The notes below the pieces were generated by a model that had not been told where the DNA came from, ran no database searches, and saw nothing but the letters and a program-made list of their open reading frames with translations. Source: Acidobacteriota bacterium (GTDB lineage: Bacteria; Acidobacteriota; Aminicenantia; Aminicenantales; Aminicenantaceae). Taken from it: 37,301 bases of DNA. Made by a program: the position numbers and the translations under genes. Shown here piece by piece: positions 35,035 to 37,109 of this stretch. Numbering within the stretch: the stretch's first letter is position 1; each line of letters opens with the position of its first letter. The stretch is from contig DAOVDI010000013.1 in assembly GCA_030669585.1 (NCBI GenBank), forward strand, positions 1-37,301, given 5' to 3'.

Positions 35035-35126
35035 ACCGAGCTCTCTGGATAACAGGAAAAAGAGACACTTGCCCCATAAAGATGACAATATATCAATTCC
35101 AGGCTTTATTTTTTCCCTGAGACCTG

Positions 35127-35155
35127 TTGGCATAAAGATTGCATCTGAGTATAAT
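35127..35155 (+). promoter_or_regulatory. Sigma70-type promoter of the lipoprotein gene
   Basis: -35 TTGGCA (35127-35132), 17-bp spacer, perfect -10 TATAAT (35150-35155). The start of transcription would be near 35162, 19 nt before the ATG at 35181, with GAGGAG-type ribosome-binding sequence at about 35168-35174. Confidence 0.8.
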
Positions 35156-35180: not shown

Positions 35181-35771
35181 ATGAAAAAAGCAGGATGGAT
35201 ATTGATTCTTTGTTTAATATTCTTTGCAACAAGCTGTATGACCATCGATCCTCAGCTCACAGAAAAGAGGGTCAAGATCCGTCATTCCAGAGACTATGAT
35301 AGGGCGGATTATGGTTATTATGACGATTACTCTTATTCATCGATGTATTACAATCCCTACTACAGTTATTATCCGTCATACTGGATGGGAATGAGTTGGT
35401 GGTGGAATCCGTTATATTATTATGGCCTTTATGATTATATGTACTGGTATTATCCCAGGTCCTACTGGGGATGGGGATATGGATCCTATTACAGTCCGCG
35501 CTACGGTCGATCCGTTGTGACCAAAAAAGCCCTGCAGCAGCCGAGGACCCGGAGAATTCCCACTGGTATTACAAAGAGGAGAACCACCCGTTCAAGCTCT
35601 TCCGGCAGTTCCCGAGGAACGGTTTCCGGAAGATCCGGGACATCGCGGTCGAGAGGTACCGTCTCCCGGGGCGGATCTTCCCGCTCGGGTTCTTCCGGTA
35701 GGTCCAGTTCCGGCAGGTCCAGTTCCGGATCCCGATCCAGTTCAGGCTCTAGTTCCCGAAAAAAGAAATAA
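35181..35771 (+). CDS. Tyrosine-rich lipoprotein with Ser/Arg/Gly low-complexity tail
   Basis: A 196-residue predicted lipoprotein. ATG 35181 follows a GAGGAG site. The signal peptide KKAGWILILCLIFFATSC ends at a lipobox-like cysteine (Cys19). Residues ~35-110 are extraordinarily rich in Tyr, with Trp, Ser, Pro and Gly (for example SSMYYNPYYSYYPSYWMGMS and YYYGLYDYMYWYYPRSYWGW). A basic segment follows (~115-135), then a tail of ~60 residues of Ser, Arg and Gly in short SSSGRSS-like repeats, ending RKKK. I know no family for it. Aromatic-rich secreted proteins of this sort can be surface adhesive or structural. It is monocistronic and convergent with the M23 gene, 9 bp away. Confidence 0.8.
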   Translation: MKKAGWILILCLIFFATSCMTIDPQLTEKRVKIRHSRDYDRADYGYYDDYSYSSMYYNPYYSYYPSYWMGMSWWWNPLYYYGLYDYMYWYYPRSYWGWGYGSYYSPRYGRSVVTKKALQQPRTRRIPTGITKRRTTRSSSSGSSRGTVSGRSGTSRSRGTVSRGGSSRSGSSGRSSSGRSSSGSRSSSGSSSRKKK

Positions 35772-35780
35772 TAAATCCTG

Positions 35781-37109
35781 TTAGTCGCTGCCGGCAAGGA
35801 CAGATTCCTCGCTTCTGGATCCCAGTGATGTATGATAGAAAAAACTTCTTGCCAGGATCAGCGGTCCATCAAAACACAACCTGAAATATTCTGCTTTGTT
35901 CTGAAAGTCGGCAATAAGTTTCTTGTTTAAAGGTTGGACCGGTTTAAATCTGTAAGAGAGAGGGTTGATGAACCTGCCGTTCTTTTTTATTCGATAATCC
36001 AGATGCGGGCCTGTGGATTCGCCGGAATTTCCCACATATCCGATAACCTGTCCCTGTCTGACCTTTTCGTTTGTTTTGACAGCATACTGGCTGAGATGGA
36101 GATACATGGATTCATAGCGGTTTTTGTGCCGGATCTTAATCATGCGGCCTGCAGCGCCGTTCCTGCCTGTAAAAATCACGGTTCCGTCGGCTGTGGTCTG
36201 GACAGGTGTTCCCACCCGTGCCGCATAATCCACGCCCATGTGAGGGCGGAAGACTTTGCGGATAGGATGGTACCGGCTGTAGCTGAATCGTGATGTGATC
36301 CGCGCAAAACTGATAGGCGATTTTAAAAACTCCCGTTTGAGAGAAGCTCCATCGAATCGAAAATAATCCCATTTTTGTGTGCCCGGATAAGTATAGCGGA
36401 AGGCCTGAAACAGTTTTCCCTGGTTCATGAATTCCGCAGCAAGGATGTGGCCGTAGCCCTTGAATTCCTGATCAAGAAATTTTTTTTCAAACAGGATCTT
36501 AAAAGTGTCCCCTTTCCTAAGGTCAGTGTGAAAGTCGATATCCCATGCAAAGATCTCGGAAAGTTTTATGGCCAGCAGCTGTTTTTCGCCGGTTTTCTGT
36601 ACAGCGTTGATGGGATTGTCTTCGATGATCCCCCAGATGAGTCCTGTTCTGAGTTCAACGGCTAATTTGATGATTTCTGCTACATAGAGACCGTCTTTCC
36701 TTTCAATACGCACAAAACTTTCCACATCGATGTCATATTCCAGACGTATAACCCGGCCATCCGCTGCAGTGTACACTCTGAATTCATGCCCAGCCTTGAT
36801 CCTGGCCAAGTCATAGACCGGCTTGACGTCCTGGCGGAGTTTGTAGATCTCAGCAGGCGAGAAATCAAAGGGGGAGAGAAGATCTGTGAGAGTGGTTCCT
36901 CTTTCAATATGAAGGATGTATTTCTGGTACTCAGGTTCTACCGGAATAACCGGTTTGTCAGAGACAAATTGTTCAGAAACGGAATCACTACGATCCTTGG
37001 GGAGAAAACTCAGGATGAAAAATATGATCAGCATTGCGGCAATCAAAATGGTTATAAAAAGCAGGCCGGATGGGTCTTTTTTGTCCCTGATTTTGATGTA
37101 AACCTTCAT
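35781..37109 (-). CDS. M23-family peptidoglycan endopeptidase
   Basis: A 442-residue membrane-anchored LytM/M23 protein. A single N-terminal helix (LLFITILIAAMLIIFFILSF) is followed by an OapA/LysM-like N-terminal domain (ILHIERGTTLTDLLSPFDFS; FRVYTAADGRVIRLEYDI), an M23 N-terminal domain, and the catalytic domain with FRPHMGVDYAARVGTPV (HxxxD metal ligands, around residue 290), MYLHLSQ and STGPHLDYRIKKNGRFINPL. In most M23 enzymes that last motif is HLH; here the second His is Asp, so the zinc site would be His-Asp-Asp. Such proteins act at the wall as D,D-endopeptidases or as amidase activators. It has its own promoter and follows no operon partner. Confidence 0.88.
   Translation of the reverse strand: MKVYIKIRDKKDPSGLLFITILIAAMLIIFFILSFLPKDRSDSVSEQFVSDKPVIPVEPEYQKYILHIERGTTLTDLLSPFDFSPAEIYKLRQDVKPVYDLARIKAGHEFRVYTAADGRVIRLEYDIDVESFVRIERKDGLYVAEIIKLAVELRTGLIWGIIEDNPINAVQKTGEKQLLAIKLSEIFAWDIDFHTDLRKGDTFKILFEKKFLDQEFKGYGHILAAEFMNQGKLFQAFRYTYPGTQKWDYFRFDGASLKREFLKSPISFARITSRFSYSRYHPIRKVFRPHMGVDYAARVGTPVQTTADGTVIFTGRNGAAGRMIKIRHKNRYESMYLHLSQYAVKTNEKVRQGQVIGYVGNSGESTGPHLDYRIKKNGRFINPLSYRFKPVQPLNKKLIADFQNKAEYFRLCFDGPLILARSFFYHTSLGSRSEESVLAGSD

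Follow-up and report, generated by a model that had tools for sequence, protein, structure and literature searches.

The lipoprotein gene described here is predicted to be transcribed under the control of sigma-54, a conclusion that is well supported by the conservation of its upstream region among relatives. We consider that its product, a lipoprotein of outer-membrane type, serves as one structural part of an envelope or matrix layer whose components are switched on together in Aminicenantes, a reading to which we assign a probability of about one half. The gene lies in a window (the whole stretch of DNA that was analyzed) of 37,301 nucleotides, and the features discussed below are listed in Table 1. 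Aminicenantes are known mainly from metagenomes of sediment and subsurface, and to our knowledge little has been learned about their cell surface.

Table 1. Features of the lipoprotein locus, with positions in the window.
Feature	Positions	Strand	Basis or remarks
Probable enhancer-binding-protein site TGCCCCATAAAGATGACA	35070..35087	+	8/10 to TGTCC-N8-GGACA; starts 57 bp upstream of the sigma-54 element
Sigma-54 promoter element TTGGCATAAAGATTGCA	35127..35143	+	12/14 to YTGGCACGRNNNTTGCW
Lipoprotein CDS, 196 aa, aromatic core and Ser-Arg tail	35181..35771	+	TAA stop at 35769-35771; coding to 35768
Signal peptide, aa 1-18, and lipobox Cys19	35181..35237	+	Cys invariant in alignments; AF2 helix 2-19
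Aromatic core, aa 36-105, predicted disordered	35286..35495	+	Composition, AlphaFold
Hinge motif RSVVTKKAL, aa 110-118	35508..35534	+	Similar motif in the corresponding position of FecR/DUF6600 proteins behind the same box
Ser/Arg/Gly tail, aa 119-196, charge +20, end SSSRKKK	35535..35768	+	Composition, codon test
M23 endopeptidase with Csd3_N2 domain, convergent neighbor	35784..37109	-	Genomic context

Anatomy and conservation of the lipoprotein

The list of open reading frames offers an upstream start, TTG 35139, which falls within the -12 promoter element; ATG 35181 is therefore the likely start codon. Lipidation, predicted in an earlier note on this DNA, is supported by a lipobox whose Cys19 is invariant among the aligned homologues, and the residues directly after it are Met-Thr, not Asp. 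The same note had described a Tyr/Trp-dense domain between residues ~35 and ~110 followed by SR/GS repeats and a final RKKK, and both descriptions hold: 25 Tyr and 7 Trp bring the aromatic share of residues 36-105 to 46%, and Lys and Glu do not occur there, while 90% of the 78-aa tail is S/R/K/G/T, with no D/E. AlphaFold predicted disorder and no fold for the lipoprotein (mean pLDDT 49.7, pTM 0.18). A Pfam scan of the protein gave no family at E<=1, hence no match to DUF6600 (PF20245), and an NCBIfam scan found no family.

The idea that the lipoprotein is an orphan fails, as homologues are carried by 25 of the 38 genomes of the family. Copies were detected in 25 of the 99 relatives searched, the own genome counted, and 24 of them belong to the same GTDB family. 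A profile made from 17 copies found the lipoprotein in 24-25 of the 38 family genomes (Candidatus Aminicenantes) and gave one clear copy outside, in a genome of another family (G065). The remaining 13 family genomes have no detectable copy, so the lipoprotein is not essential to the regulon described below. When genome contigs were searched with the lipoprotein as a single-protein query, no match was obtained; a six-sequence alignment retrieved 11 named loci, all of them in Candidatus Aminicenantes MAGs. One genome harbors a second, diverged copy (G026:C144:7784-8296).

Lipobox Cys, aromatic core, hinge (RSVVTKKQL) and SR tail are retained by all complete copies. An ID..YTG..V motif is also kept by the homologues, and their cores are 32-46% aromatic. 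Tail length in complete copies ranges from about 45 to 141 aa, with a basic end such as VKKKK. In close pairs, codon changes in the tail were distributed 75/49/140 over positions 1/2/3 (598 codon pairs), and the core showed the same pattern (116/91/325). The third-position excess indicates that the tail is translated and constrained. The earlier note would have regarded its interpretation as refuted by a lack of homologues in close relatives or by a variable frame in the tail; homologues are present in close relatives, however, and the tail is in frame with constraint at the codon level.

A predicted sigma-54 promoter with a phased palindrome

The upstream region can be read as a sigma-70-like promoter, TTGGCA-17-TATAAT, that overlaps the -24/-12 element TTGGCATAAAGATTGCA. 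In relatives, TATAAT lies 10, 12, 17 or 18 nt from TTGGCA, and it is absent in six copies. The sigma-70 reading was rejected because the spacing of TATAAT varies or the hexamer is missing, while the -24/-12 element is conserved instead. An element resembling YTGGYAYR-N4-TTGCW precedes all 24 same-family copies, with scores of 12-14 out of 14 positions, and the GC of its GG-N10-GC signature is located 27-42 nt ahead of the ATG. The out-of-family copy (L024) lacks a sigma-54 element. In place of the 'strong private promoter' proposed for the gene we favor a sigma-54 promoter: the TTGGCA-17-TATAAT arrangement does exist, but the conserved part is the sigma-54 element and the box is shared with other genes. 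The own genome encodes RpoN and seven typical enhancer-binding proteins, which combine an AAA+ domain with a Fis-type HTH, and it contains 17 matches to the sigma-54 pattern, compared with 1 in the reversed control. A literature search returned no paper pairing Aminicenantes with sigma-54.

Further upstream, an 18-bp palindrome, TGTCC-N8-GGACA, is found in 24/24 same-family copies, matching at 7-10 of its 10 positions. It starts 56-58 bp upstream of the sigma-54 element in 22 copies and 67 bp upstream in the other 2, and several copies have a second palindrome 20 bp further upstream. The weakest palindromes (7/10) do not rise above shuffles when taken singly; the evidence lies in their constant position. 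Elsewhere, be it ahead of different genes or in a second family of the order, the distance from the start of the palindrome to the element is 46-49, 56-59 or 66 bp. Spacing in steps of one helical turn (10 bp) is as expected if an activator must occupy one face of the DNA, and the palindrome is probably the site of a single enhancer-binding protein.

The predicted regulon and the shared C-terminal architecture

We searched the family genomes with a composite box, GACA-N(28-50)-TGGYAY-N5-TTGCW, using the reversed pattern as control. The box occurs in 38/38 genomes, with 271 matches as against 6 in the control. Sixty box loci were sampled, and the first gene behind the box was read for 55. Recurrent first genes encode FecR-domain proteins, most of them with a DUF6600 domain. 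A FecR fold is supported in one such co-regulated protein by its match to solved FecR-type anti-sigma factors, and the AlphaFold model of a co-regulated protein gave a fold for the FecR domain only. Other genes behind the box encode FadL/OmpX-like beta-barrels, TPR lipoproteins and VWA proteins. A literature search for DUF6600 found nothing.

The co-regulated FecR proteins carry long Ser/Arg tails that close with KVKKK, KRVKKK, KVRKR and similar ends. Under one fixed definition, 10 of the 55 first genes that were read encode the tail, compared with 0/201 other ORFs (Fisher 1e-7, a value that overstates independence since related proteins were counted separately); the 201 are what remains of 210 other ORFs once 9 tail-bearers are set aside, all of them lipoprotein copies or the box-associated DUF6600 protein of the own genome. 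A search for Ser/Arg tails in the own genome is no census: it returned one already known tail protein and a weak chance match, and missed the lipoprotein itself.

A PSSM trained on lipoprotein homologues only was used to scan 13 FecR proteins (445-724 aa) for the hinge. The best site coincided with the end of the aromatic domain (SRALTVIHKNQLKAR and variants) in 12 of them, with p values of 0 to 0.059 each upon whole-sequence shuffling and with the proteins forming perhaps three independent groups. Among the 12 are L129, in which assignment of the aromatic region to DUF6600 is not obvious, as well as L135 and L175, which belong to another FecR type. HMM A3 matched FecR/DUF6600 tail proteins in other genomes, but when the lipoprotein and the FecR proteins were compared over the whole profile, most scores did not exceed those of local-composition shuffles. 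FecR/DUF6600 proteins with the hinge also stand behind the same box in a different family of the order, and complete FecR/DUF6600 proteins from two further families (L234, L237, L238) have Ser-rich tails with a basic end; in the DUF6600 proteins sampled outside the class, hinge and tail are mostly absent. Judging from these comparisons, the lipoprotein and the FecR proteins appear to share architecture and hinge, and we make no claim of common descent for core or tail. The FecR/DUF6600 secreted proteins of Aminicenantia are thus like the lipoprotein in box, aromatic region, hinge and basic-ended Ser/Arg tail; however, the lipoprotein has a lipobox, no FecR domain and no DUF6600 match.

Several additional loci were detected in the course of the survey. 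MacB/FtsX-like permeases are also matched by the box pattern, yet their upstream regions look different and they may belong to another activator. At six of these loci (L124, L127, L134, L157, L163, L164) the sigma-54 elements share a different upstream stretch (GACATAT...), which suggests a second activator with its own regulon. Small TPR lipoproteins lie behind the same box as the lipoprotein at L097, L099, L110, L111 and L154; the PEP-CTERM system likewise includes a TPR lipoprotein, PrsT. The own genome (G000) encodes four VWA-like proteins, each behind a sigma-54 element (L036, L045, L049, L050), and the only one of the four compared with TIGR03436 (L045/L081) scored below its cut-off. The region upstream of one VWA-type protein (G000:C158:11520-11572; L050, L083) is almost identical to that of the lipoprotein: the near-identity covers the sigma-54 element, the 36 bases that lead up to it and the greater part of the leader, and the contig ends inside it. 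Either a copied promoter or an assembly repeat would explain this observation. A lipoprotein with a charged terminus, VRKKIDKN or VRKKTDGN, follows the same box in another family of the order (L244, L245) and is perhaps the counterpart of our lipoprotein there.

A proposed jointly switched envelope layer and its alternatives

Under the reading that we prefer, a structural component of a jointly switched layer, transcription of the lipoprotein gene would require sigma-54 and one activator bound at TGTCC-N8-GGACA, about 75 bp ahead of the start and always on the same side of the helix. Such dependence implies that the lipoprotein is made only on a signal. The same box would drive the secreted FecR/DUF6600 proteins with a similar hinge and basic-ended Ser/Arg tail. 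Lipidation and the lack of Asp at +2 would send the lipoprotein to the outer membrane if the enterobacterial Lol rule applies. There, contacts between aromatic residues might let the disordered Tyr/Trp/Gly core self-associate, and the +20 tail and the comparable tails of the partner proteins might dock to an anionic polymer and tie the layer to the cell; LPS, exopolysaccharide, nucleic acid and wall are candidate polymers. A role in a surface layer, glue or matrix, as the earlier note had speculated, would fit the anatomy, the predicted disorder and the regulatory context, and it is from these that we infer glue or docking. Tyr/Gly-rich adhesive proteins and Arg/Tyr condensate-forming proteins also combine sticker-like aromatics with an Arg/Ser/Gly-rich disordered segment. 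The likeness is one of composition only, as aromatics and Arg stand in separate blocks in the lipoprotein, and a literature search for Tyr/Arg-rich lipoproteins found nothing.

Among systems known to function, PEP-CTERM offers the closest parallel, although the lipoprotein, judged by its sequence, is not a member of it. In that system a sigma-54 site and a predicted regulator, PrsR, go with exported proteins (Haft 2006, PMC1569441), and an RpoN-dependent PEP-CTERM protein (pepA) keeps polymer bound to cells in flocs (PMC9850573). The resemblance to PEP-CTERM/PrsK-PrsR lies in diverse exported proteins with a common C-terminal element, a sigma-54 promoter and an upstream activator motif. However, the tail of the lipoprotein has neither PEP motif nor transmembrane helix; it is long, basic and devoid of a compact motif, so that only the basic end matches. 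The activator motifs differ as well: that of PEP-CTERM genes has 17 nt, ends in TTTACA and is separated by a spacer of 62.8 ± 10.6, in contrast with the fixed, helically phased spacing of TGTCC-N8-GGACA. Identity of the own enhancer-binding proteins with PrsR was rejected, their best score being 423 bits against a PEP_resp_reg cut-off of 502.6. More broadly, the bacterial exterior has been viewed as being under sigma-54 control (Francke 2011, PMC3162934). The predicted regulation of envelope and surface proteins agrees with this theme, to which the present case adds an example at the level of a new lineage, with an activator site of its own and a protein family that lacks a database model.

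The PEP-CTERM parallel also underlies another explanation, in which the basic-ended Ser/Arg tail is a sorting or assembly tag for a putative export or attachment machinery, as in PEP-CTERM/exosortase, and the core is the cargo. That differing N-terminal parts (the lipoprotein and two FecR types) share hinge and tail under one regulon speaks for such a tag, as do the tail's absence from all 201 other ORFs and the combination of a sigma-54 site with a separate activator motif in PEP-CTERM genes (PMC1569441). We regard it as unlikely, given that the tail lacks a hydrophobic segment and a short invariant motif and is very variable in length. A regulon that answers envelope stress, with the lipoprotein acting as a passive barrier or bridging LPS rather than as matrix glue, would account for the FadL/OmpX-like barrels, TPR lipoproteins and VWA proteins behind the box and for its FecR-fold proteins; as no known stress activator (e.g. 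of PspF type) exceeded its curated cut-off among the own enhancer-binding proteins, this seems distinctly improbable.

We give little credence, too, to a wall-binding cationic lipoprotein that cooperates with, or acts upon, the neighboring M23 endopeptidase and the division and cell-wall cluster. The M23 wall hydrolase pointed out in the earlier note is indeed the neighbor, the tail is polycationic, and the order mraZ - nudix/DUF2007 - lipoprotein - M23 is retained in several genera (L004/L070, L014/L071, L020, L062), a conserved block that supports orthology of the copies. But the M23 gene is convergent, and the examined flanks of several homologues lack it, for instance on both sides in g5 (L065, L067) and also in g14 (L009, L010); the rest of the block is likewise missing from the examined flanks of other homologues, L065 and L067 among them. 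A partnership of the lipoprotein with the wall hydrolase is therefore a weak alternative. As for the possibility that the ORF is a functionless stretch of low complexity or an expansion of non-coding DNA, low complexity and the lack of a Pfam or NCBIfam family are what such an ORF would display, but conservation of lipobox, hinge and basic C-terminus, the third-position excess in the tail and the phased promoter refute this explanation and leave it next to no chance.

Altogether, the findings point to a tail that is common to proteins with differing N-terminal parts. A tentative extension, with the odds somewhat against it, is that the hinge and Ser/Arg-basic tail might together form a C-terminal module for docking that is new and that marks the members of an envelope-matrix system dedicated to this purpose in Aminicenantia. 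A single sigma-54 activator would switch the system as a whole, which would make it an independent equivalent of PEP-CTERM, without transmembrane anchor or sortase. With its promoter, activator site and protein parts, the predicted regulon offers a concrete target for searches in any metagenome and for tests by expression in a laboratory host.
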